Shown: piece after piece, positions 15,062-62,823 of the stretch | Layout: every line of letters starts with the position of its first letter | Position numbering within the stretch: position 1 is the stretch's first letter | DNA from: Candidatus Rokuibacteriota bacterium | Lineage (GTDB): Bacteria > Methylomirabilota > Methylomirabilia > Rokubacteriales > CSP1-6 | DNA: 64,000 bases | Direction of reading: 5' to 3' | Assembly: GCA_003221515.1 (NCBI GenBank) | Contig: QHSI01000106.1 | Coordinates: forward strand, 1 to 64,000 | Translations under genes and position numbers: made by a program | Notes under the pieces: model-generated | Databases searched by the model: none | Told to the model about the DNA's origin: nothing | Seen by the model: only the letters and a program-made list of their open reading frames with translations

Positions 15062-15895
15062 TCATTGCAGCTTCCGGTATTTGCGGCCGACCGGGCAGAC
15101 GCGCATGCACTCGAAGCACTGGGCGATCGAGTCGCGGAAGAAGCCCAGGGACTGGATACTCCTGGTGAAGAAGTCGCTGTAGAGCATCGTGCGGCGGCGC
15201 GCCGGGTCGTCCTCGTTCACGATCTGGAGCAGGCCCTTCTGGAACGAGCCGATCCCGTAGGTCTGCGCCCGCGAGTGGCATTTCTCGCGATCGTAGGTCG
15301 ACTGCCGGATGCGCCCGTCCTGCACGGTTCCGCTGAGGCACGCCGGGCACACGCGCAGGCACGGCGTGGTCCCGATGCGCTTGTACATCGCGACGCAGCC
15401 GGGATGCGGACACGCGGGCTCGGCCAGCGGCGCGTCGGGCTCGAGCGGCAGCGTCGTGATGAGCGCCGCGTAGTAGAGCAGGCCGTACTCCGGGTTCAGG
15501 ATGATGTGCGCGGCCAGCGAGCGGGTGCCGAGGCCGGCCAGCTCGGCGGCGTGCATCATCGACATCGGCGGCTCGTGGCCGTGGACCGGCAGCGACGGCG
15601 CCTGGATCGCGTGGTGCGCCAGCGTGCCCTCGATGAAGTCGCACATCGCGTGGACCGCGACGTTCTCGCGGAGGTCGTAGCCGGTGATCTCCATCACGCG
15701 GTTGTCGGGGGAGCGCCACGCCCCGGCGGTCGGCCCGTCGCCGCCGGCGACCACCACGCTGCGCGCGCCGGGCAGGATGTCCTCCGGGCGGTAGCCCTCG
15801 GGCACCTTCTCCCGGAACGCCTCGACGGGCGCGATGCCGACCACGCGCGCGCCGGCCTTGAGGCCTACCGCCTTCACCTGCTCTTCACGCGTCAT
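15062..15895 (-). CDS. QueG-like / reductive-dehalogenase-like 4Fe-4S protein, paralogue 1
   Basis: A 277-aa paralogue of the downstream gene: LKAGARVVGIAPVEAF, PEDILPGARSVVVAGG, CPHPGCVAMYKRIGTTPC, VCPACLSG and CFECMRVCPVGRKYR. The shared C-terminal pattern suggests two iron-sulphur clusters fed from the same electron donor, and the N-terminal domain is where corrinoid binds in QueG and reductive dehalogenases. No Tat signal or membrane anchor is present, so it is cytoplasmic. It is the first gene of the leftward cluster, and its start lies 41 bp from the divergent acyl-CoA ligase. Function is unknown. Confidence 0.75.
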   Translation of the reverse strand: MTREEQVKAVGLKAGARVVGIAPVEAFREKVPEGYRPEDILPGARSVVVAGGDGPTAGAWRSPDNRVMEITGYDLRENVAVHAMCDFIEGTLAHHAIQAPSLPVHGHEPPMSMMHAAELAGLGTRSLAAHIILNPEYGLLYYAALITTLPLEPDAPLAEPACPHPGCVAMYKRIGTTPCLRVCPACLSGTVQDGRIRQSTYDREKCHSRAQTYGIGSFQKGLLQIVNEDDPARRRTMLYSDFFTRSIQSLGFFRDSIAQCFECMRVCPVGRKYRKLQ

Positions 15896-37985: not shown

Positions 37986-39194
<1,209 letters not shown>

Positions 39195-39213
39195 CAGGCT
39201 CTCTCCTTCGTAC

Positions 39214-39265
39214 GCGCGCCTCGGCCGGCGGGGCCCCAGCCCCGCGACGGCCTGCAGCGCGCACT
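39214..39265 (-). repeat. REP-like hairpin repeat, single copy
   Basis: One unit of the dispersed repeat, on the minus strand in the 75-bp gap between the ThDP gene and the acyl-CoA dehydrogenase. It keeps the core GCGGGGC-TGGG-GCCCCGC stem-loop and the flanking GGCCG/CGGCC arms. Outer ends differ slightly (GCGCGCTGC and GAGGCGCGCG) but still pair. No second tandem copy is present here. Confidence 0.75.
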
Positions 39266-39269
39266 GCCG

Positions 39270-40901
39270 TCAGTGCTGATAGCGCGGCAGCGTCTTGAGC
39301 GGCGCGAAGAACACCGGTCGCGCCATCCGCCCGACCGGCACCTCGATCAGCACGGGGCGGTCCATCTGGATCGCGTCCGCGACGAGCTTGCCCACCTCGC
39401 TGGGCTCCTTCGTGCGCCGGCCCACCGCGCCGTACGCCTCGGCGAGGCGGACGAAGTCGGGGTTGTGCAGCTCGGCCGCGAACTTTCCGCCCCAGTGCTC
39501 GTCGAGGTCGCGCGCGACGTTACCGTAGGCGTTGTCGTTGAACACGACCGCGACCACGTTGATGCCGTGCTGGACCGCGGTCGCCATCTCCTGGGCGTAG
39601 TACATGAAGCCGCCGTCGCCCGCGATCATGACCACCGGCTTGCTGGGGCACGCGACCTTGGCGCCGAGCGCGGTCGGGTACTCGAAGCCGAGGTTGCCGG
39701 AGTACGACGAGTTGATGTAGGTCCGCGGGCGGTAGACCGGGAAGAACGGGCGCGAGAAGTAGCCGATCTGCGTCATCCCCGCGATGACCACCGCGTCCTC
39801 GGGGATGCCCTGGCGCAGGGAGCGTAAGATCGACGAGTTGGGCTCCTGCGTCATGAGCGCGGCGACCTCGCGGCGGAGCTTCTCCCGCTCGCTCTTGCGC
39901 GAGGCGCGCGGCTTGCCGCCGGCGCGCAGTCGCTCCAGCAGCGCTTCCAGCGTAGCCTTCGCGTCGCCGACGAGGCCGGAGGTCTTCTTGTGGTTGCGAC
40001 CGATCTCGTCAGGGTCGGCGTCGATCTGGATCACCGGCAAGTCCGGCGGGAACATCGCGATCGCGCAGCGGGTGCCGACGGCCAGGACCACGTCGACGCC
40101 GTCGAGGTAGCCGCGCAGCGGGCTCTTCGGGAAGAGCCCGGCGCCGAGCGAGAGATCGTTCGCGTCGCTGATCGCGCCCTTGCCCTCGGCCGTCTCCACC
40201 ACGCCGGCCTGGAGGTGCTCGGCCACCGCCGCCAGCGCCTCGTGAGCGCCCGAGAGGTGGACGCCGCCGCCCGCGTAGATCGCGACTCGCTCGGCGCGCA
40301 GCAGCGCCTCGGCGGCCCGGTCGACCTCGGCGGCCGGTGCGCCGGCACGCGGCGGATGCGCTCCCACGGCCGGCAGCGTCAGCTCGACTTCTTCCTCCAT
40401 CGTGTCCCAGGGCATGTCGATCGCGACCGGGCGCGGCCGACCGCTGCGGAGCTGGGCGAACGCCTCGCGCACGATCCCCGGCGCGTCCGCGACCTGCGTG
40501 ATCGTGCGACGCCATTTCGTGGAGCCGGCCAGCGCGTCGAGCTGGTCGTCGAGCTCGTGCAGCACGCCGATCTTCTTGCCGATCTGGTTGCGCGGGATCT
40601 GTCCCGCGATCATCAGCACCGGTGAGGAGGCGGCGTACGCGGTGTTGAGACCGGCGGAAGCGTTGAGGAGCCCGGGCCCCGGCACGGCGACGGCGACGCC
40701 GATCCCACCGCCGGCGCGCGCATAGCCGTCGGCCATGTAGGTCGACGAGCCTTCGTGTCGCACGGTGATGAAGCGAATCGGCTCGTCGCGGAACGCGGTG
40801 ACGATGCCGTAGAGCTGGACGCCGGGCAGGCCGAACGCGACCTTGACGCCTTCACGGGCCAGAGCTTTCACGATCGCTTCGCCGCCGGTCATCCGCGCCA
40901 T
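39270..40901 (-). CDS. Thiamine-diphosphate-dependent enzyme, acetolactate-synthase-like
   Basis: A 543-aa full-length ThDP enzyme with the three classical domains: N-terminal pyrimidine-binding (FGLPGVQLYG, VRHEGSSTYMADGYARA with the catalytic Glu), a central domain, and the C-terminal ThDP motif GDGGFMYYAQEMATAVQHG with NDNAYGN. It lacks the acetolactate-synthase FAD-domain features that can be checked by eye, and likely acts as a benzoylformate- or oxalyl-CoA-type decarboxylase or carboligase. AGAGAGGA precedes the ATG, and a GATAAT box lies about 45 bp upstream. It heads the 14-kb leftward run. Confidence 0.92.
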   Translation of the reverse strand: MARMTGGEAIVKALAREGVKVAFGLPGVQLYGIVTAFRDEPIRFITVRHEGSSTYMADGYARAGGGIGVAVAVPGPGLLNASAGLNTAYAASSPVLMIAGQIPRNQIGKKIGVLHELDDQLDALAGSTKWRRTITQVADAPGIVREAFAQLRSGRPRPVAIDMPWDTMEEEVELTLPAVGAHPPRAGAPAAEVDRAAEALLRAERVAIYAGGGVHLSGAHEALAAVAEHLQAGVVETAEGKGAISDANDLSLGAGLFPKSPLRGYLDGVDVVLAVGTRCAIAMFPPDLPVIQIDADPDEIGRNHKKTSGLVGDAKATLEALLERLRAGGKPRASRKSEREKLRREVAALMTQEPNSSILRSLRQGIPEDAVVIAGMTQIGYFSRPFFPVYRPRTYINSSYSGNLGFEYPTALGAKVACPSKPVVMIAGDGGFMYYAQEMATAVQHGINVVAVVFNDNAYGNVARDLDEHWGGKFAAELHNPDFVRLAEAYGAVGRRTKEPSEVGKLVADAIQMDRPVLIEVPVGRMARPVFFAPLKTLPRYQH

Positions 40902-49423: not shown

Positions 49424-49900
49424 ATGACCGAGGACGAGGCCCTGGGAGCCCTACGCGGTAGCGACGCCGGCGCCGCCGCGCGCGCCGGAGCTCTGCTGTG
49501 GGAGATGTGGCACCGCTCCGGAGACCGCGAGCTGGACGCCCTGCTGCGCGAAGGCATCGCCACGATGGAGCGCCGTGATCTCGCCGAGGCGGAGACGATC
49601 TTCGCCCGCCTGATCGCCAAGGCGCCGGCGTTCGCCGAGGGCTGGAACAAGCGCGCGACGGTCCGCTACGTGGCCGAGAACTACGAGGGCTCGATCGCCG
49701 ATTGCGAGGAGACCCTCAAGCGCAACCCGAACCACTTCGGCGCGCTGTCGGGCCAGGGACTCTGCTACATGGCGCTCGGCCGCCACCGCGAGGCGGCGGC
49801 GGTGTTCCGGCGCGCGCTGCTGGTGCATCCGCACCTGGCCAGCGTGCGCCAAAACTTGGCCGCGGCGCTCGGCGAAGCGGTGCGGGGCAACGGACACTAG
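49424..49900 (+). CDS. Tetratricopeptide-repeat protein
   Basis: A 158-aa protein with three TPR-like units: DLAEAETIFARLIAKAPAFA, NYEGSIADCEETLKRNPNHF and RHREAAAVFRRALLVHPHL. It has no signal peptide and is a short cytoplasmic TPR scaffold. It diverges from the SDR gene across 57 bp. A pair of REP-like hairpins starts exactly at its stop codon. Confidence 0.88.
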   Translation: MTEDEALGALRGSDAGAAARAGALLWEMWHRSGDRELDALLREGIATMERRDLAEAETIFARLIAKAPAFAEGWNKRATVRYVAENYEGSIADCEETLKRNPNHFGALSGQGLCYMALGRHREAAAVFRRALLVHPHLASVRQNLAAALGEAVRGNGH

Positions 49901-49963
49901 GTCGTGCGCGCCGCAGGCCGTCGCGGGGCTGGGGCCCCGCCGGCCGAGGCGCGGCTACAACCG
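49899..49963 (+). repeat. REP-like hairpin repeat, tandem unit 1 of 2
   Basis: A 65-bp unit. It folds as GCCGC-A-GGCCG-TC-GCGGGGC, loop TGGG, GCCCCGC-CGGCC-GAGGC-GCGGC, giving three helices of 5, 5 and 7 bp. It begins inside the TAG of the TPR gene. The second unit follows head to tail with one core difference outside the stem (GGCTACAACCG versus GGCCACAACCG). Confidence 0.85.
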
Positions 49964-50028
49964 AGGTCGTGCGCGCCGCAGGCCGTCGCGGGGCTGGGGC
50001 CCCGCCGGCCGAGGCGCGGCCACAACCG
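49964..50028 (+). repeat. REP-like hairpin repeat, tandem unit 2 of 2
   Basis: The second 65-bp unit, identical to the first through the whole hairpin. The following GGGGGA serves as Shine-Dalgarno for the kinase gene at 50042, so the hairpin ends immediately before a translation start. Confidence 0.85.
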
Positions 50029-50041
50029 GGGGAGCGACGGA

Positions 50042-51073
50042 ATGATCGCGCAGACGGCGGAAGTGCGTGACGCGCACCGCTTCGACGTGACCGCGCTCGA
50101 GCGCTACATGCGCGGGCACGTGGAGGGCTTCGCCGGCTCGCTGACCGTCAGCCAGTTCCGCGGCGGCCAGTCGAACCCGACCTACCATCTGTCGGCCGGG
50201 GGGCGGGAGTACGTGCTGCGCCGGAAGCCGCCGGGCAAGCTGCTGCCTTCCGCGCACGCGGTCGACCGCGAGTATCGGGTGATCACCGCGCTGGGGAAGA
50301 CGGGATTCCCGGTGCCCCGGACGTTCGCGCTCTGCGAGGACGACGCGGTCATCGGCACCGCGTTCTACGTCATGGACTGCGTCCACGGGCGCATCATCAC
50401 CGATCCGGCGATCCCCGACGTGACCCCTCGCGAGCGCGGGCAGATCTACGACTCGCTGAACGACGTGCTGGCGCGCCTGCACACTACCGACTGGCAGGCG
50501 CTCGGGCTCGCCGACTTCGGGCGGCCTGGCAACTACTTCGCCCGCCAGATCCATCGCTGGACCCAGCAGTACCGCGCGTCCGAGACGGAAAAGATCGACT
50601 CGATGGAGCGTCTGATCCCGTGGCTGCCGGAGCACATTCCGGCCGGCGACGAGACCGCGCTCGTCCACGGCGACTTCCGGCTCGGGAACGTCATCGTCCA
50701 TCCGACCGAGCCGCGCGTCATCGCCGTGCTCGACTGGGAGCTCTCGACGCTCGGCCATCCGCTCGCGGACCTCGCCTACTTCTGCCTGCCGTACCGGTTC
50801 ACGCGCGAGTGGGAAGGGCTGGCCGACAAGAACCTGGTCGAGCTGGGCGTGCCGAGCGAAGGGGACTACGTCGCGACCTACTGCCGGCGGGCCGGACGCG
50901 CCACGATCGCCGACTGGGAGTTCTGCCTGGCCTTCGCGATGTTCCGGCTGGCCGCGATCGCCCAGGGCATCATGGGGCGCGTCGTCGCCGGCACCGCGAA
51001 CGACCCGAATGCCCAGGAGCGCGGGCGGCGCGCCCGCCCGCTCGCCGACTCCGCCTGGAAGTTGATTGGGTGA
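50042..51073 (+). CDS. APH-fold phosphotransferase (ACAD10/11 N-terminal-kinase type)
   Basis: A 343-aa aminoglycoside-phosphotransferase/choline-kinase-fold protein. SQFRGGQSNPTYHLSAGG is the Gly-rich loop, LRRKPPGKLLPSAHAVDREY carries the ATP-binding Lys and Glu, LVHGDFRLGNVIVHP is the catalytic loop and VLDWELSTLGHPLADLAY the metal-binding loop. This subgroup (LRRKPPG...S AHAVDRE) is the one fused to acyl-CoA dehydrogenase in ACAD10/11 and encoded as LvaA in levulinate degradation. The matching dehydrogenase type is at 37986-39194. Confidence 0.92.
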   Translation: MIAQTAEVRDAHRFDVTALERYMRGHVEGFAGSLTVSQFRGGQSNPTYHLSAGGREYVLRRKPPGKLLPSAHAVDREYRVITALGKTGFPVPRTFALCEDDAVIGTAFYVMDCVHGRIITDPAIPDVTPRERGQIYDSLNDVLARLHTTDWQALGLADFGRPGNYFARQIHRWTQQYRASETEKIDSMERLIPWLPEHIPAGDETALVHGDFRLGNVIVHPTEPRVIAVLDWELSTLGHPLADLAYFCLPYRFTREWEGLADKNLVELGVPSEGDYVATYCRRAGRATIADWEFCLAFAMFRLAAIAQGIMGRVVAGTANDPNAQERGRRARPLADSAWKLIG

Positions 51074-54377: not shown

Positions 54378-56705
54378 TCACGGAACGACCTCGACGCTCA
54401 CGTCACGCGCGTCGGCGCCGCCGGCGTCGTCGAGGACGCGCAGGGTGTAGCGGCCCGCTCGCGACGGGTGCCACGCGAAACTTTCCCCCGCGCCCGTCCG
54501 GCCGAGGAAGCCCTGATCGGCGAACCAGAAGAGGGCGCGCGTCGAGTCGGTGGCCTGCAGATCGATGGCGATCGGCTGCGACAGCCGGATCGTGTAGACG
54601 GCGCCGCGCGATGGCGACGTGATCCGGGGCGCCGACGCGTCGGCCTCCGCGCCGCCGCGGCCGCACGGCATCGCGGGCGGCGGCTCGCGCCGGGGCAGGC
54701 CGGCCTCGCGAAAGAGGCGGAGCATGTCCGCCGGCCAGTATTCGAAGACCTCTCGCCGGGTGAAGGGCCCGTCCTCGCAGACCGCGCGGCCCGAGCGAGT
54801 GTCGACGATGACCGCGCGGTGCAGGCGGCTGACTCGGATCGGCGACTTGCCGGGAATGAACCACGTGGTCGCGCGCTCGCGGCAGTGCGCGTTCGGCAGA
54901 TCGCCGCTGGCCCGGCACACCTCGACGCGCGCGACGTGGGGCGGGAGTGGACGCGGCCGCTCGCCCGGATCGAGCCCTTGCCCGCGGATCGCGTCGACCA
55001 CGTTGAAGAACAGTGGCGCCGCGATCTTGACGCCGACCAGCGCCGGGTTACCGGCGCCGTCGAAGTTCCCGACCCACACGACGAGGGCATAGGGACCGAA
55101 GACGCCCACCGACCATGCATCGCGAAAGCCCCACGACGTGCCGGTCTTCCAGGCCACCGAGGGCGCCGCCGGCCGGCCCGTGTCGGGCCGCGGATTCGCG
55201 CGGAGCATGTCGAGGGTGATGAACGCGGCTTCGGCGCTGATCAGCCGCGTGGTGGAAGGCGGCGCCGGATCGCGCGTGTAGCGAAGGGCGCGTGGCTCGC
55301 CGCCGTTCGCGAGCATGGCATAGAGACGCACGAGCTCCTCGCCGGTGACGTCGCCGCCGCCGAGCACGAGGGCCAGGCCGTAGTGCCGCTCGGGCGCCAG
55401 CTTCGTCACGCCGGCGCTCTTGAGCAGCTCGTAGAGACTCGGGCGCGAGAGCCGGGCGGCCACGGCGACCGCCGGCACGTTGCGGCTCCGCACCAGCGCG
55501 TCCTGCACGCTGATCGGCCCCACGAAGCGGCCGTCGAAGTTCTCGGGGCTGAACGGGCCGAAGGCCGTCGGCACGTCCCTCAGGATCGTCAGCGGATGGA
55601 CCAGACCCTGGTCGAGCCCCAGGGCGTACACGAAGGGCTTCAGGGTCGACCCCGGCGAGCGCTTGGCGAAGACTCCGTTGACCTGGCCGTCGATCGCGTC
55701 GTCGAAATAGTCGGCCGAGCCGACGAGCGCCTTGACCGCCATGGTGCGGGTGTCCACCAGGAGCGCGGCGGCGTTGCGGATGCCGAGGGGCCGCTGCGTC
55801 TCGACGTACCGGGCGATCATCCGCTCGACGGTCGACTGCAGGCGCGGGTCGATGGTCGACCAGATCTCGGTCTCCGCGCCGCGTCTCGTTCTCAAGAGGG
55901 CCTCGACCAGGTGCGGCGCGCGGAAGGGCAGTGCGGTCGGCGACGGCGGAGCCAGCGGCAGCGCCAGGTCGGCTTCCCGGTGACGGTCGCGCGGGTGCCG
56001 CGAGACCCACCGCCGCCACAAGCGCTCGCGCGCGTCGACGAGCTCGCGCTCCGCTTCGCGCGCCGTCCCCTCCCGAGCCGGCGAGACTCGGCGGCGGGGA
56101 TTCTGTGGGATGACGGCGAGGGTCAGCGACTCGGCCAGACCGAGCTCAGCCGCCCGCTTGCCGAAGTACACGAGGCCGGCGGCGCCGACCCCCTCGACGT
56201 TGCGTCCGAAGGGCACGAGGTTCAAATAGGCTTCGAGGATCTCGCGCTTGCCGTAGCGCAGCTCGAGCCACGCGGCGGCGCCGATCTGCCACAGCTTGCC
56301 GCCCACCGTACGGCTGTCGATCCCGTCGAGCCGCCTCGCCAGCTGCATCGTGATCGTCGATCCGCCCTGGCGCCGGCGGCCGAACCAGCTCGCGCCCGCG
56401 CTCCGAGCCAGCGCGTACGGATTGACGCCGGGATGCCAGAAAAACCACCGGTCTTCGTACAGCAGCACCGCCTCCCGGGTCGCCGGCGCGATCTGATCGA
56501 GAGGGACCCAGAGGCGGTACTGCTGGTCGGCGGCCAGCGTGAGACGGAGCAGCTCGCCGTTCTCCGCGAAGACGGCCGACGAGAACGTCGCCCGGCTACC
56601 CAGCGATGGCGCGGCCACGATGCGCGGCGCGACCAGTGCGGCGGTCGTGAGCGCGCCCACGACGAGCGCGAGCCGCCATCGGCCCCGGCGCGCGGGACGG
56701 CTCAC
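54378..56705 (-). CDS. pbpC: Penicillin-binding protein 1C (bifunctional peptidoglycan glycosyltransferase/transpeptidase-like)
   Basis: A 775-aa PBP1C. A transmembrane helix (residues about 10-30) is followed by the GT51 glycosyltransferase (EDRWFFWHPGVNPYALARS with the catalytic Glu, RRQGGSTITMQLAR), the transpeptidase domain (SPGSTLKPF with SxxK, SRN, KTGTS) and the PBP1C-specific C-terminal domain from about residue 660. PbpC and the alpha-2-macroglobulin next door are a classical coupled pair; their genes overlap (ATGA). Confidence 0.96.
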   Translation of the reverse strand: MSRPARRGRWRLALVVGALTTAALVAPRIVAAPSLGSRATFSSAVFAENGELLRLTLAADQQYRLWVPLDQIAPATREAVLLYEDRWFFWHPGVNPYALARSAGASWFGRRRQGGSTITMQLARRLDGIDSRTVGGKLWQIGAAAWLELRYGKREILEAYLNLVPFGRNVEGVGAAGLVYFGKRAAELGLAESLTLAVIPQNPRRRVSPAREGTAREAERELVDARERLWRRWVSRHPRDRHREADLALPLAPPSPTALPFRAPHLVEALLRTRRGAETEIWSTIDPRLQSTVERMIARYVETQRPLGIRNAAALLVDTRTMAVKALVGSADYFDDAIDGQVNGVFAKRSPGSTLKPFVYALGLDQGLVHPLTILRDVPTAFGPFSPENFDGRFVGPISVQDALVRSRNVPAVAVAARLSRPSLYELLKSAGVTKLAPERHYGLALVLGGGDVTGEELVRLYAMLANGGEPRALRYTRDPAPPSTTRLISAEAAFITLDMLRANPRPDTGRPAAPSVAWKTGTSWGFRDAWSVGVFGPYALVVWVGNFDGAGNPALVGVKIAAPLFFNVVDAIRGQGLDPGERPRPLPPHVARVEVCRASGDLPNAHCRERATTWFIPGKSPIRVSRLHRAVIVDTRSGRAVCEDGPFTRREVFEYWPADMLRLFREAGLPRREPPPAMPCGRGGAEADASAPRITSPSRGAVYTIRLSQPIAIDLQATDSTRALFWFADQGFLGRTGAGESFAWHPSRAGRYTLRVLDDAGGADARDVSVEVVP

Positions 56706-59700
56706 CGGGACAGACGCTCGACCGTGATCTGTCCCGCGGGCGAGCGCGCCCGGACCGTGCGGTCGTACAGCGACTCACCGTACGCGGGCGGCACGACGAA
56801 GCGGCCGACGTTGGTGGCCTTGATCCGGTACGTGAACTCGGCCATGTCGGGGCCGACGGTGCCGTAGAGCACGACGCGCTCTTCGCGAATGTCGGCGAAC
56901 TCCGCTGACCAGGTCCCGCCGCCGCCCAGCGGATTGGCCCAGCCCGGCCCACCGGACGTGCCGCCGATCGGGGTCGGGATGAGCACGGGCTCGAACCCGC
57001 CGGGCAGCAGATCGACCAGCGCGACGTCGCGCAGCGCGGGCCGGTCGACCACCCGGAAGCGCAGGCGCACGGTGATCTCTTCGCCGAGCCTCACCGACGT
57101 GATCGGCGTGCCGGCCGCGTCGAGATACTCGCGGAACACCTCGAGCCCCGACCGGAGCTCGCCGGCTGGCGGTGTGCGATCGAAGCCGGATTCGGTGACG
57201 GAGTAGAACGTCGTCAGCGGCTCGGAATTCGCGAACCGCAGCGTGGCCGTGTCGGACGCGAATGGCACGCGCGGCACGAGCGTGCCCGGCAATGCCAGGG
57301 ACCGCGCGGCACCGTCACGCGGCACTTCCGTGATCGCGAGCTTGCCGAGGACGACCGGGCTCACCAGCGTGGCGTAGGCGTCGAGCGCCAGGATCGTGTA
57401 GGCCGCCGACAGCGTGTGGAAGCGTCCCTGCTGGATCGGCTTGATCATGTCCGCCAGCGTCGCCGCCGAGAGCGCCCGCGCCCGCTGCGGGAAGTGACGC
57501 GCGACGAGGTACAGGACCTGCGCGTCGTGCACGAGCGGGTCGTAGTACGACTCGTAGCGATACGGTGCGGCGCTCTGGCCGATCCGCTCGAGCGGCTTGT
57601 CGATGAGGCTCCCGGCGAGGCGCTCCTGCTTGAGGAGCTGATAGCTCGCCGCCAGGTATGCGGCCGCCAGGTCCGCCGGCCAGTCCTTCGGATACCTGTC
57701 GTCGAGCCTCTCGCGCAGGCCCGTGAGCATGGGCGTGGTCACGATCCCTTGCCGGGTCAGCAGATAGGCGGCGTAGGCCCGGGTCCGCGCCTGCGCCAGA
57801 TCCTGCGCCGGAATGGTCCCGAGCTGCTGCAGGTACGCGTTGCCCTTCTGGATCATGTCGGCGGGAACGTACTCGTCCCGCTCGGCGGCCTCGAGCAGGA
57901 GGTGCACCGCGTAGACCGACGCGAACTCGCTGGCCTGCACCGACGCGGTCCACAGGCCGAAGCCACCCTCGGCGTTCTGGCGCGTGCGCAACACCCGAAC
58001 GGCATCCGCGAAGTTTCGGCCCGGCGTGAGCCCCGGCCGGGGCGGCGCCAGGAGCTCGGGGCGGCGCGCGAGAACCACCTGTGGCATCGCCTTGCTCACG
58101 AGCTGCTCCGTGCACATATGGCCGAAGGCCACGAGATAGGTGCTGAGGCCATGGGCGAGAACGAGCGGGAGGGGCGAGATGGCCGCTTCGAGCTGCCGGT
58201 GCTCTCGGTGGAGGTCGCGCTGCACCGGCACGTCGATCGAGCCGGTGAAGCCGCCGGCGGTGACGATCGTGTAATGCGGCGTCGCCGGGCGCACGGACAC
58301 GTCGGTGTCGAGCGCCGCGCCGTAGGGTCCTGAGCCGGCCGTGAAGCTGAGCGTCGCCGACCCCAGGCGCGTGTCGGCTCCCATCCTGGCCCGCACGCGG
58401 AACGTGGCGACCCCTTCGCGCAACGCGCCGACCCTGAGCGAGTGCTGCGCGGGGCCTGCGACCTCGAGGTGCGGCGTGGTCGAGAGCGCGACCGTCACGG
58501 CCGCGTCAGGCCCGGATGCGCGCACGTTGTTGGCGACGCCGACCGAGACGTCGAACTCGTCGCCGGGTGCGACCGCCACCGGCGCGTTGGGCGACAGCAC
58601 GAAGTCGCCGCGGACCAGGGACTGCACGCTGGCCACGCCCAGGCTCGTGTCGTTGACGGCCACCGCCATCACGCGCAGCGCGCCGTTGAAGGTTCCCGGC
58701 ACCTGGTAGACGAACTCGCGCGAGCCCTTCACGTCGACGACGCCCGACCAGAAGACCACCGGCGCGTCGCGTCGACGCTTGAACGGGTTCAGGTGTCGGC
58801 CGAGCTCCGCTCCCGCGTCGCCGCCGGGCGCCGCGGCGCTCATGATCCGCTTGAACTCGGGCAGGATCAGGTCGAGGATCTGCGCGGTCCGCACCTCGAG
58901 CATGCGCTTGCGGAAGAAGTGTCCGAGCGGATCGGGCGTCTGATAGCGGGCGACCTGCAAGATCCCCTCGTCCACCGCGAAGACGACCGCGCGGGCCGGC
59001 TGGGTGGCCGCGAGCGTGATCCGCAGCGGTTGTCCTGGCTGCACCGTCTCGGCCGCGGTCAGCGTGAGCGTATTGGTCCGCTGGGCGAGGCTCAGCGTGA
59101 ACGGCACGACGCCGAACGAGAGCGGGCTCATGAAGATCTCCTCCGACGCCGGATCGCGGACGTAGTGCACGGCGACGTAGCCGTTGCCCTCGAAGTCGCC
59201 CGGGATCCGGATCCGCTGCACCGAGCCCAGCGTCGAGCTCTTGAACCACTGATGGGCGTAGACGCGCTCGCGCTCGATGGTGACGAGGCCGGCACCGGCG
59301 TACGGGGCGCGGATGCTGACCTCGATCTCGTCGCCGGGCGCGTAGTCCTTGCGGTCGAGCGCGAGCTGCAGCTCGGCGTTCCGCTCGAGCGAACGGGTGA
59401 CGTTGGCGTGGCCGGTCACCGTGTACTCGATGCGGTTCATCTCGAGCCCCTGCGCGTCGCGGACGACGTACGCGAAGCTGCCGGCACGCGTGGTGGCCAG
59501 CGCCAGCGACAGGCCGGCCGCCCGGATCGCGAGCGGCTGCTCGGTGATCGTGATCTCTTTTCGCCGCGACTCGTACTTGTACGTGTTGTTGGCCTGCCGG
59601 GTCAGCACGGAGACCCAGGCGCGTTCGACCAGCACGAGCTTCAACCCGCTCACGGCGGTCTTTCTGGCGTTGGGATCGATGGCGATCACCGAGACCGTGC

Positions 59701-62575
59701 GCTTCGCGCCCCGCGTGACGTAGTCGAGCGGGCCATCGGGCTTGTAGCCGACCAGGAACGGCAGCTCGGAGACCAGGGCCGCCGTCTCGGCGGAGACGCT
59801 TCGCCCGCCTTCGGGCTCGAACGCGCGCGCCAGGAAATGCAGGTGATACGTCGCCCGGGCGTAGCGGTCGAGGCGGAGCTCCAGGTCGGCCTCGCCGCGC
59901 TCGTCGGTCGTCGCCTCGCCGAGCGGATTGCTGTAGCCCTCCCTGGCGCGCTGCGGGTCGAAGAAGCTGTAGCCCGCGTGGCTCCGGAAGGCCGGGAACG
60001 CCGGCGAGAGCGTCAGCACCGCTTCGACGCGACGCTTCTCCGCCGGCGTGCCGAAGAGGTTCTGCACCCGGACGCGCGCGGTGAGCCCGGACGGGCTCAG
60101 CCAGCCCTCGGCGGTGTCGCGGGACAGCGCGGCGGTGATCTTCATGCGATCGGGCAGGAACTCCTGCACGTTCACGGTGGTCGATCCGATCTGCTGGTTG
60201 GGCTTGCCGTCCTTCACGATCGAGAGCGTGACGGCGTAGGCGCCGGTGGGCGAGCTCTCGACGGTCTGGTGCGACAGGTCGCTGAAGCCGCCGGCGCCCA
60301 GCGCGAGCTTCTCGCGCTTGACCGTCAAACCGCGTGGATCGACGACCTCGACCTCCAGCGGCAGCCCGACGAGGCTCTTCACCCATCCCGCGGCCTTCAC
60401 GATCGCGGCCACGTGGATCGTGTCGCCCGGCCGGTAGAGCCCTCGATCCGAGAACAGGTAGGCGCTCAGCTGGTCGGGGATGCGGGCGTTCTGGACACCG
60501 CCCACGTCGAAGCGCGTGAGGTCGAGCCCGCGATCGGAGCGCGTGAGCGGCAGGAAGCTCGTGTCGTCACCGCGACGCACGACGTACATCAGCGCCGCAC
60601 GCTCGCGGGTCAACCCGTCGAGCCTCGGGAACTGCGCGCGCCCGGTCGCGTCAGTCGGGCGCGAGAACGCGACCAGGCCGTTCTTCCCGATGACGTCGAC
60701 GGTCGCCCCGGTCACCGCGTTGCCGGAGTGAATCGACTGGACGAAGACGTCCTGGGCGCCGTCGAGCGCCTTCTTGACGAGGATGCCGAGATCGGTCACG
60801 AGCACGAGCCGCCGGTCGCTGTAGCGCCCGTCGAGCCCCCACCGCTCGCGGTTCCATCGCGGGTCCGCGCCACCCGGCTCGGCGTCGGTCGGACGATCCA
60901 TCGCCGGGTCGTAGCTCTGGACCGTGAGCAGGAAGACGCCGCGCCGCTCGGCGCCGTCGGCCCTCAGATATTCCGAGAGGTCGAGCGCGTGGTAGTGCGG
61001 GCGCCCGCGTGGCAGGTTCGGCAGCGGCACTTTGCGCTCGAAGCGCTCGACCAGATTGTCGGATCCGAACTGGTTGCCGAACTGGGGGTGGGCGAAGTCT
61101 CCGAACGATTGGGACACCAGGTGCTGGAGCTGCGAGGGCAGCACGCGACCGACCTCGATGCGCAGGCCGGGAAGATCGCGGACGAGAATGGCGACCTTGC
61201 GCTCGCCGCTCACGGCCAGGAGCGAGCCCTGGCTGAGGATCTTCAGCTCGGGCGGAAACGGCGGCACCCGCACGAGACGCTGCATCCGGTCGCCCAGCAG
61301 GTAGCCGCCGAAGCCGCGCAATCCCCGCTCGACCTGGACGTACACGTAGCGCCCGACGTCGGCGCGGTACTTGAACGAGTGCGTCTCGACGTTCTCGCGC
61401 TCGGCGGCGATCGGATCGAGCGTCAAGCGTGTGCTCGCGGCGAGGATGGCGTCGGTGATCTCGGCCGGGTCGCGCCAGTCGTGGATCTTTTCGCGCGGAT
61501 CGCGAGGCTCCGGGTGCTGCACGGGCAGGACCCACGCCGCGATCCTCTTCTGCATCTCGTTCTCGTGGGCCGCGGCAGACAGCTCCACGACGAGGACCTG
61601 CTCCTGCTCACCGGCGACGCCGCTGACGACGGCGGGCCCGACGGTGTTGACCCGCAGGCTGTAGAGCCCGGGGATGGTGATCGTCTGCGTCGGCGCGTAG
61701 TCGGCGGCCTTGCCACCGCGCGCCGCCACCACGCCCTTGTGGACGGTGACCGTCAGCGTCGTGCTCTCCCGAGGGATCGGCAGTGCCGCCGAATGGATGT
61801 AGGCGTTCAGCCCTAGCTTGTCGTAGCTGATCGTGAACTTCGTGGTCTGCCGCCCCACGCCCAGGACGCCGGCCGACTGGCCGGCGAGCCTGAGCTCGAT
61901 GCGCTTCTCCAGCTCGGCGGCGTCGACCGGATGGCTGAAGCTCAGCCCGATCACCGCCTTCTTCAGGGCGGGATCGACCGGGTCCTGGAAGAACTCCGCG
62001 TTGGCCAGCGTCAGCACGAAGAGAGGTGTCTGAAAGGTGAACCAGCTCTCGGCGAGGCGAACGTCTCGCGTGAAGGCGCGTTTGTCGAACGTCACCGTGT
62101 ACTGGGCGCCGATCGGCCAGTCGTCCTTCGGCTGGAACCCGAGCGTGGTGTCCGACGTCCAGCGCCAGGTTCCTGCCAGCGCGGGGCTCATCGCGATCCC
62201 GCTCGACACGTCCTTGCCGACGCCGGAGAGCGGAGCGACTGATCGATGAAACGTGACCACGAGGGGGTTGGGCTTCTTGTCGCTCTCGATCTCGGTGCGC
62301 TCCGGCGCCTTCACCGTGTACGTGACAACGACCGGCCGCGGCCGAGCCTGCCACCAGAGATAGCCCCACGACCCGCCGACGGCGAGGACGAGGATCGCCC
62401 CGGACAGCGCGCCGGTGAGCCGGGGCCGCGCCGCCAGGCGCCGCGCGGTGAGGCTGACCAGCTCGACGAGCCGGCGCAGCCAAACGGGCGCATCCCAGGT
62501 CACGCGGCCGAACAGCGCCGCCGTCGACGCGCGTAGAACTCGCCAACCCAACCCGAGCGCAGGGCGGAGACGCAT
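56702..62575 (-). CDS. Bacterial alpha-2-macroglobulin with thioester motif
   Basis: A 1957-aa protein of the YfhM type, thought to trap proteases in the periplasm while PbpC repairs the wall. The N-terminus has a transmembrane anchor (ALSGAILVLAVGGSWGYLWW near residue 55-75) rather than a lipobox. MG-type beta domains fill the middle; near residue 1490 GHMCTEQLVSKAMP contains the CxEQ thioester motif, followed by the alpha-helical toroid (YLQQLGTIPAQDLAQARTRAYAAYLL). The reading frame is intact throughout. It overlaps pbpC and lies downstream of a tandem REP-like pair and the OmpA gene. Confidence 0.94.
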   Translation of the reverse strand: MRLRPALGLGWRVLRASTAALFGRVTWDAPVWLRRLVELVSLTARRLAARPRLTGALSGAILVLAVGGSWGYLWWQARPRPVVVTYTVKAPERTEIESDKKPNPLVVTFHRSVAPLSGVGKDVSSGIAMSPALAGTWRWTSDTTLGFQPKDDWPIGAQYTVTFDKRAFTRDVRLAESWFTFQTPLFVLTLANAEFFQDPVDPALKKAVIGLSFSHPVDAAELEKRIELRLAGQSAGVLGVGRQTTKFTISYDKLGLNAYIHSAALPIPRESTTLTVTVHKGVVAARGGKAADYAPTQTITIPGLYSLRVNTVGPAVVSGVAGEQEQVLVVELSAAAHENEMQKRIAAWVLPVQHPEPRDPREKIHDWRDPAEITDAILAASTRLTLDPIAAERENVETHSFKYRADVGRYVYVQVERGLRGFGGYLLGDRMQRLVRVPPFPPELKILSQGSLLAVSGERKVAILVRDLPGLRIEVGRVLPSQLQHLVSQSFGDFAHPQFGNQFGSDNLVERFERKVPLPNLPRGRPHYHALDLSEYLRADGAERRGVFLLTVQSYDPAMDRPTDAEPGGADPRWNRERWGLDGRYSDRRLVLVTDLGILVKKALDGAQDVFVQSIHSGNAVTGATVDVIGKNGLVAFSRPTDATGRAQFPRLDGLTRERAALMYVVRRGDDTSFLPLTRSDRGLDLTRFDVGGVQNARIPDQLSAYLFSDRGLYRPGDTIHVAAIVKAAGWVKSLVGLPLEVEVVDPRGLTVKREKLALGAGGFSDLSHQTVESSPTGAYAVTLSIVKDGKPNQQIGSTTVNVQEFLPDRMKITAALSRDTAEGWLSPSGLTARVRVQNLFGTPAEKRRVEAVLTLSPAFPAFRSHAGYSFFDPQRAREGYSNPLGEATTDERGEADLELRLDRYARATYHLHFLARAFEPEGGRSVSAETAALVSELPFLVGYKPDGPLDYVTRGAKRTVSVIAIDPNARKTAVSGLKLVLVERAWVSVLTRQANNTYKYESRRKEITITEQPLAIRAAGLSLALATTRAGSFAYVVRDAQGLEMNRIEYTVTGHANVTRSLERNAELQLALDRKDYAPGDEIEVSIRAPYAGAGLVTIERERVYAHQWFKSSTLGSVQRIRIPGDFEGNGYVAVHYVRDPASEEIFMSPLSFGVVPFTLSLAQRTNTLTLTAAETVQPGQPLRITLAATQPARAVVFAVDEGILQVARYQTPDPLGHFFRKRMLEVRTAQILDLILPEFKRIMSAAAPGGDAGAELGRHLNPFKRRRDAPVVFWSGVVDVKGSREFVYQVPGTFNGALRVMAVAVNDTSLGVASVQSLVRGDFVLSPNAPVAVAPGDEFDVSVGVANNVRASGPDAAVTVALSTTPHLEVAGPAQHSLRVGALREGVATFRVRARMGADTRLGSATLSFTAGSGPYGAALDTDVSVRPATPHYTIVTAGGFTGSIDVPVQRDLHREHRQLEAAISPLPLVLAHGLSTYLVAFGHMCTEQLVSKAMPQVVLARRPELLAPPRPGLTPGRNFADAVRVLRTRQNAEGGFGLWTASVQASEFASVYAVHLLLEAAERDEYVPADMIQKGNAYLQQLGTIPAQDLAQARTRAYAAYLLTRQGIVTTPMLTGLRERLDDRYPKDWPADLAAAYLAASYQLLKQERLAGSLIDKPLERIGQSAAPYRYESYYDPLVHDAQVLYLVARHFPQRARALSAATLADMIKPIQQGRFHTLSAAYTILALDAYATLVSPVVLGKLAITEVPRDGAARSLALPGTLVPRVPFASDTATLRFANSEPLTTFYSVTESGFDRTPPAGELRSGLEVFREYLDAAGTPITSVRLGEEITVRLRFRVVDRPALRDVALVDLLPGGFEPVLIPTPIGGTSGGPGWANPLGGGGTWSAEFADIREERVVLYGTVGPDMAEFTYRIKATNVGRFVVPPAYGESLYDRTVRARSPAGQITVERLSR

Positions 62576-62597
62576 GATCGGCCCTCAGAAGGTGGCA

Positions 62598-62650
62598 GTG
62601 CGCGCCGCAAGCCGTCGCGGGGCTGGGGCCCCGCCGGCTGAGGCGCGGCT
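62598..62650 (+). repeat. REP-like hairpin repeat, tandem unit 1 of 2 (with compensatory change)
   Basis: The hairpin differs from the 49899 copies at two paired positions: the 5' arm is AGCCG and the 3' arm CGGCT, replacing GGCCG/CGGCC. The pairing is kept, which is covariation. The unit is followed by CTAGAAATTCTAG (62648-62660), an AT-rich near-palindrome, and then the second unit 63 bp after the first. Confidence 0.85.
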
Positions 62651-62660
62651 AGAAATTCTA

Positions 62661-62712
62661 GTGCGCGCCGCAAGCCGTCGCGGGGCTGGGGCCCCGCCGG
62701 CCGAGGCGCGGC
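62661..62712 (+). repeat. REP-like hairpin repeat, tandem unit 2 of 2
   Basis: The second unit has the AGCCG 5' arm but the CGGCC 3' arm, so one base pair is lost (A opposite C) relative to unit 1. The core GCGGGGC-TGGG-GCCCCGC is unchanged. It lies in the 248-bp gap between the OmpA-domain gene and the alpha-2-macroglobulin gene. Confidence 0.85.
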
Positions 62713-62823
62713 GACAGATCCTGGACGACGCGGAGCCGCGGTGCGTGGCCGGACCGCTGAAGCTCTCCGCCCCGGCGGCGACGGCCGCCGAGGCGGAGAT
62801 CAGAACGGCGCCCATGGAGCCGA

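Follow-up and report, generated by a model that had tools for sequence, protein, structure and literature searches.

A dispersed hairpin repeat of about 60 bp, mostly in sense before Shine-Dalgarno sequences, in genomes of Candidatus Rokuibacteriota

Introduction

Repeats of the REP type are in most cases linked to RAYT transposases and located behind genes, and mycobacterial interspersed repetitive units (MIRUs) lie in gene orientation and form direct tandem arrays. The CGTC-tagged REPs have a stem of 8-9 bp headed by A-T pairs and a CCA tail, form head-to-head dimers and are found near the 3' ends of upstream ORFs, with a varying spacing to downstream ORFs (PMC3733652). RNA structure just 3' of a stop codon reportedly correlates with lower translational coupling (review PMC12548453).

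We analysed a stretch of 64,000 nucleotides (hereafter referred to as the window; contig QHSI01000106.1) from a draft genome of a Candidatus Rokuibacteriota bacterium (hereafter referred to as the source genome). A sequence-only reading of this DNA had described an imperfect hairpin present in five copies at three intergenic sites, and had likened it to a REP/RAYT-type or MITE-like family. We report here that the copies belong to a large family, which is probably a non-coding, non-autonomous REP/MITE-like mobile hairpin of about 60 bp, copied in trans and surviving as an mRNA-leader hairpin beside Shine-Dalgarno sequences (SDs). The literature retrieved for Rokubacteria with REP or inverted repeat contained no description of this hairpin family.

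Results

All five copies were located in the window as 58-nt units (Table 1), at three sites that are indeed intergenic. At 39.2 kb and 49.9 kb, the element has the orientation of the next gene and immediately precedes its SD and start codon; the tandem pair at 62.6 kb lies between two minus-strand genes and is antisense to both. Two bases separate the TAG stop codon of the TPR gene (49898-49900) from the first copy of the pair at 49.9 kb, and the two copies of this pair differ at one base. Pfam confirmed the neighbours proposed for this site, a TPR gene and an APH kinase. The contact of the element with stop codons and ribosome-binding sites had also been seen in the sequence-only reading, but the rule of sense placement before an SD was not recognised there. 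An 18-mer from the core of the element (GCGGGGCTGGGGCCCCGC), used as the search pattern, matched the window five times at ≤3 mismatches, a count reached by none of 100 dinucleotide-shuffled sequences. As a separate observation, the window carries a gene for a bacterial alpha-2-macroglobulin-like protein of 1957 aa with a bMG10 domain (56702-62575, minus strand), which overlaps by 4 nt with the gene for a 775-aa neighbour (54378-56705, minus strand); we assume that these may be the usual A2M/PBP1C pair.

Table 1. Locations of the element copies, neighbouring genes and composite elements. Positions refer to the window unless a locus is named.
Feature	Location	Strand	Remark
Single copy	39208..39265	-	between TPP-enzyme gene and acyl-CoA dehydrogenase gene
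Shine-Dalgarno AGGAGAGAG of acyl-CoA dehydrogenase gene	39199..39207	-	sequence reading
Acyl-CoA dehydrogenase gene, downstream of single copy	38193..39194	-	
Thiamine pyrophosphate (TPP) enzyme gene, upstream of single copy	39270..40901	-	ends 4 bases before copy
Gene with TPR repeats, C-terminal part, upstream of first tandem pair	49451..49900	+	
Tandem pair 1, copy 1	49903..49960	+	58-nt unit; hairpin 49907-49953
Tandem pair 1, copy 2	49968..50025	+	65-bp spacing
Shine-Dalgarno GGGGGAG of APH gene	50028..50034	+	directly 3' of copy 49968-50025; sequence reading
APH phosphotransferase family gene (PF01636), downstream of first tandem pair	50042..51073	+	
Tandem pair 2, copy 1	62597..62654	+	A-T variant of pair 14-43
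Tandem pair 2, copy 2	62660..62717	+	63-bp spacing
Composite element, locus of the source genome	L083:5375-5494	-	
Composite element, G002 loci	L262 and L264		
Composite element, G007 locus	L152 about 15500-15620	+	

The element is not confined to the window. A BLAST search of the source genome returned at least 50 copies, and the core pattern matched 107 times at ≤2 mismatches, against seven matches for the reversed-pattern control. The draft genome, of 5.1 Mb, holds about 100 copies. Within about 1.16 Mb centred on the matches (window included), 101 distinct copies were identified at 88 loci (77 single, 9 double and 2 triple), these copy numbers being lower bounds. The 11 arrays are all direct, with a period of 62-65 bp; relatives have more tandem arrays than the source genome, with up to four units (L266). 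A composite form of about 118 nt, in which a second hairpin of the same architecture lies in the apical loop of the first, has identical junctions at four loci (Table 1), suggesting that it is perhaps a longer mobile form. No autonomous parent bounded by half-elements was found in 1.9 Mb searched, in which only the composite form was met, with 68 nt between the halves. One copy, at L050:4327-4384 (plus strand), apparently lies in frame inside a coding sequence, comparable to the in-frame REPs/RPEs of other bacteria.

The element is 58-63 nt long, and its imperfect hairpin has 18 base pairs arranged as three stacked helices (6+5+7). Its consensus is G-Y-N-G-TG-CGCGCC-GCA-GGCCG-TC-GCGGGGC-TGGG-GCCCCGC-CGGCC-GA-GGCGCG-SCTAYAA, in which the conserved unpaired parts are GCA/GA (internal loop), TC (bulge) and TGGG (loop). 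Among 74 distinct copies, standard pairs occupied 95.3% of cells, versus 36-47% when the partners were slid, and 25 cells had double changes, distributed over five pairs, versus 2.8 in shuffles. For example, pair 14-43 changes from G-C to A-T, and pair 16-41 from C-G to A-T, T-A or G-C. Single copies folded as sense-strand RNA gave modest z-scores (-0.85 to -2.1), because GC-rich sequence generally folds well; covariation is better evidence for the hairpin than single-copy folding energies. In a GCGAGCC subfamily (e.g. L053:9881 and L084:8771), which is the common form in other genera, two outer Watson-Crick pairs give way together to tandem G.A/A.G mismatches (GCGAGCC/GGCGAGC), as would be expected if sheared G.A pairs were tolerated in their place.

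The family was also recovered with a covariance model, which was run on 95 genomes of the class Methylomirabilia, 60 of them from the order of the source genome (Rokubacteria), and found matches in 43, all within this order. The genomes with the element represent most genera of its own family and include one genome of a second family, and the number of copies per genome ranged from 0 to >58. With the same model, no element was found in the other families of the class, including a single-contig genome of 2,752,854 bp. Named hits of the core pattern came solely from Candidatus Rokuibacteriota/Methylomirabilota MAGs, and no match was found in viral contigs (exact pattern) or in plasmids and phages (blastn). 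The element can also serve as a lineage marker in a group known mainly from environmental genomes.

In three genomes, with our own gene models, 84 of 148 loci lay in sense with an SD and a start codon within 70 nt, versus 12 of 148 in antisense. The distance from hairpin to start codon peaked at 18-27 nt, with a usual range of 16-28 nt. Among codirectional single leaders, 39 of 51 fell within 16-28 nt, versus 14.7 expected from uniform insertion in the same gaps (0 of 20,000 simulations). A test of the source genome performed without gene models gave 58 of 89 in sense, against 13 in antisense; the value for random positions was 13.7%, so that antisense placement corresponds to background. In other genera, the leader bias was weaker (8 of 26 in sense versus 2 of 26 in antisense). 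Copies often lie directly 3' of the stop codon of the upstream cistron, and the element likely causes misassigned start codons. The rpmI-rplT operon (L048:9429-9765, minus strand) has one element before each gene, in a position for which translational coupling is known from E. coli.

This placement could have arisen in more than one way. In a variant of the mobile-hairpin reading that we regard as a serious contender, albeit one we would not favour, copies insert at random, and selection alone accounts for the position before the SD by purging insertions everywhere else. At least one-third of the copies are not clear 5' leaders, and the presence of such copies at convergent and antisense sites is consistent with random insertion, as is a coding density of about 92% (own gene models), at which few insertion sites would be tolerated. 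Nevertheless, copies adjoin the SD even at sites with 50-110 nt of free intergenic room upstream, and the background level of antisense placement upstream of starts likewise argues against purging as the sole cause.

A fixed distance to the SD and start, a single orientation and a conserved secondary structure with conserved bulges are also features expected of a resident cis-regulatory leader RNA, riboswitch-like or protein-bound, controlling the translation of a large regulon and kept for its function. We consider this improbable, in view of the gene content and the turnover described below. The genes behind the copies are unrelated, encoding L20, L35, S20, NrdR, RNase J, UbiD, a CoA-transferase, an amidohydrolase, a xanthine-dehydrogenase type protein, APH and an acyl-CoA dehydrogenase, with no common theme, and the share of copies that are not clear leaders is itself at odds with a leader function. 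Rfam 15 gave no match above the gathering score in the window; for the element itself, hits at E ≤10 did not exceed chance level.

We infer movement from the comparison of syntenic sites among eight genomes of the genus, which are species-level drafts with about 75-95% identity. In the nearest relative (G002, about 90% nucleotide identity), a recognisable copy was present at only 11 of the 24 testable sites of the source genome, the others being empty or occupied by a relic, and few copies were shared with other relatives. Empty sites in relatives keep conserved flanks. The copy in the rplT leader is common to the source genome and G002, and its site is empty in five relatives. G002 carries a copy before a TPP gene at a site that is empty in G001 and G008, with the 9-bp repeat ACAGTGAGG on both flanks, and a copy at L138:6102, a junction at which six others have none and which has no flanking repeat. 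In all, 9-bp direct repeats were found at two copies (TGAACAAGA and ACAGTGAGG) and at none of the other clean gains; the left and right flanks of single copies were slightly more alike than permuted pairs (3.88 versus 3.62, sd 0.07, 0 of 300).

Losses leave halves or loop-deleted hairpins, as at the acyl-CoA dehydrogenase site in G008, the APH site in G002 and the rpmI site in G003 and G007. At the acyl-CoA dehydrogenase site (39.2 kb), the copy is near-intact in G002, loop-deleted in G008 and decayed in G006, and no recognisable copy was found in G001, G003, G005 and G007. At a glycine-reductase-like gene (L077:8323, with orthologous sites in G002, G005, G006, G007 and G008), our reading of the sequence is that the gene pair overlaps in four relatives; in the source genome and G007, the element separates the two genes and supplies the stop codon of the upstream gene. 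At retained orthologous copies, 12 one-sided stem changes were pair-breaking and seven pair-preserving, and one change was compensatory, indicating no strong conservation of the hairpin at a given site. The decay of retained copies in place, together with the lack of relationship between the downstream genes, argues against a regulon and against the leader-RNA reading.

A MIRU-like element would insert at start or stop codons and carry a short frame (GTG...CTATGA/TAA, 19 codons including the stop) keeping coupling to the next gene. The position between the stop and start of adjacent genes, the single orientation and the direct tandem arrays are all in keeping with this, as is the description of MIRUs as mobile and inserting at start codons (PMC12548453). 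An in-frame stop codon was present at columns 56-58 in 42 of 108 copies (39%), with about 31 estimated from column composition. However, this stop is missing in 61% of copies and no clear SD precedes the GTG. Changes in the unit follow base pairing, not codons, on which ground a peptide as its main function was rejected; a MIRU-like frame has little probability.

The search for a mobilising enzyme covered three families. The Y1 transposase family (PF01797) was absent from the source genome and from the eight repeat-carrying genomes of the same genus (0 of 9; completeness 87-98%), so that the RAYT-type link proposed in the sequence-only reading was not borne out; the rest of that reading is supported, since the repeat is palindromic, dispersed between genes in many copies, some of them in tandem, and behaves as a mobile one. 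The absence in all nine genomes makes the loss of transposase genes in draft assembly an unlikely excuse. PF01797 was present in a related genome with no element copies (G010), in G014 and in six of the seven Methylomirabilis-type genomes tested, which lack the repeat. Reverse transcriptase (PF00078) was found in two of the nine genomes of the genus and IS256-type transposase (PF00872) in six, the source genome having only a fragment of the latter; both were rejected as the mobiliser, being patchy and not shared across the genus. The ends of the element (GGTGCGCGCC and GGCGCGSCTA) form no exact terminal inverted repeats, and none matching an IS were seen. A true REP/REPIN family, with its RAYT missing from the assemblies, is very unlikely and the RAYT-mobilised reading is largely refuted: despite a length, palindromic form, copy number and tandem clustering like those of REPs, a conserved bulge and a 5' foot of GNNG, the Y1 family is missing from the genus although present in relatives without the repeat, a GTAG tag occurs at chance level (14 of 108 copies versus 14.2 expected from the columns), the pairs are direct rather than inverted, and the location follows the downstream start codon, whereas REPs are found close to where upstream ORFs end and vary in their distance to downstream ORFs (PMC3733652).

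Discussion

Copies of this element are gained and lost among the species of a single genus, occur in tandem and nested arrangements, and lie mostly in sense before an SD. Against a mobile hairpin stand the lack of a mobilising enzyme among the three families searched, the small number of copies with clear 9-bp flanking repeats, the share of copies that are not clear leaders and the weaker leader bias in other genera. If the family is a mobile hairpin copied in trans, its imperfect palindrome would fold on one strand, as DNA or RNA, into a hairpin of three helices whose bulges are conserved, and the copying would probably be performed by an enzyme or host process that recognises this hairpin and is not a Y1/RAYT transposase. 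Selection on copying-competent lineages may maintain the hairpin, and copies left in place would drift and lose the palindrome by deletion. We propose that compensatory changes are seen between dispersed copies because selection acts on these lineages; selection on copying has likewise been proposed for REPs. The position before the SD would be favoured for insertion or, alternatively, the only one in which the element does little harm. There, a copy would become an mRNA-leader or intercistronic hairpin, predicted to part the downstream cistron from upstream translation. As RNA structure after a stop codon reportedly correlates with lower coupling, an intercistronic insertion would be expected to uncouple the downstream gene and to leave its own SD free.

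A more specific reading, which we put forward tentatively and think rather unlikely, takes the ribosome-binding site as an address: a non-Y1 system would insert the hairpin in one orientation next to the SD, spread it without breaking genes and rewire the coupling of adjacent cistrons. If this reading were true, an element would have a means of spreading through a gene-dense genome without gene disruption. For the mobile hairpin in general, the family offers a concrete starting point for finding the mobilising agent, and its gene pairs allow natural comparisons of the presence and absence of an intercistronic hairpin, as at L077, where the two genes overlap in four relatives and the element parts them in two genomes. 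Unlike the usual REPs, the element appears to spread without a RAYT and stands before genes, with a fixed spacing to the ribosome-binding site.

By structure, the CGTC-tagged REPs (Di Nocera et al. 2013, PMC3733652) appear to be the nearest described relatives. They too are short, palindromic, high-copy and intergenic, or sometimes intragenic, with a loop of 4, and the CGTC motif precedes the inner stem of our element (GGCCGTC-GCGGGGC-TGGG-GCCCCGC). There is no dedicated transposase in CGTC REPs and, here, the three families looked for (Y1, reverse transcriptase and IS256) are not genus-wide. The element differs in its three-part stem of 18 bp, CTAYAA-like tail, direct tandem pairs and fixed distance to the downstream start, and does not conform to the definition of a CGTC REP: its inner stem consists of 7 bp, all G-C, a CCA tail is lacking, and two extra outer helices are present.

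The GTAG REPs and REPINs (PMC3116915, PMC3733652) are likewise mobile, palindromic and non-autonomous, with a hairpin that is maintained across dispersed copies, clusters in tandem whose flanks are nearly identical, and insertion into existing copies. In our element, by contrast, GTAG is not above chance, the genus is without Y1, the doublets are direct and the position is that of a leader; inverted doublets were not found as a replicative unit, 77 of the 88 loci of the source genome being single and the 11 arrays direct. Bacterial MITEs (NEMIS, ERIC and RUP; per PMC3733652) share with it a non-coding, mobile nature, a location beside coding regions and the capacity to fold into RNA hairpins, but differ in that, here, no IS-matching terminal inverted repeats were found, few copies have flanking duplications, and the unit, of about 60 bp, is shorter.

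MIRUs (PMC12548453) resemble the element in lying at the junction of adjacent genes and in being apparently mobile, and our element has their placement, between the stop and start of adjacent genes, in sense and in direct tandem. However, the MIRU frame is coupled at -4 nt to the downstream gene, whereas here a strong hairpin with covariation precedes an independent SD; an in-frame stop occurs in 39% of copies only, and the downstream start typically lies 16-28 nt after the hairpin and has its own SD. Since the resemblance to REPs and REPINs fails on RAYT, GTAG and doublets, and that to MIRUs concerns placement and not anatomy, the element is of the REP/MITE kind, outside the named families. 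It is best read as an element that works like REPs and, by placement, like MIRUs, and is a member of neither.
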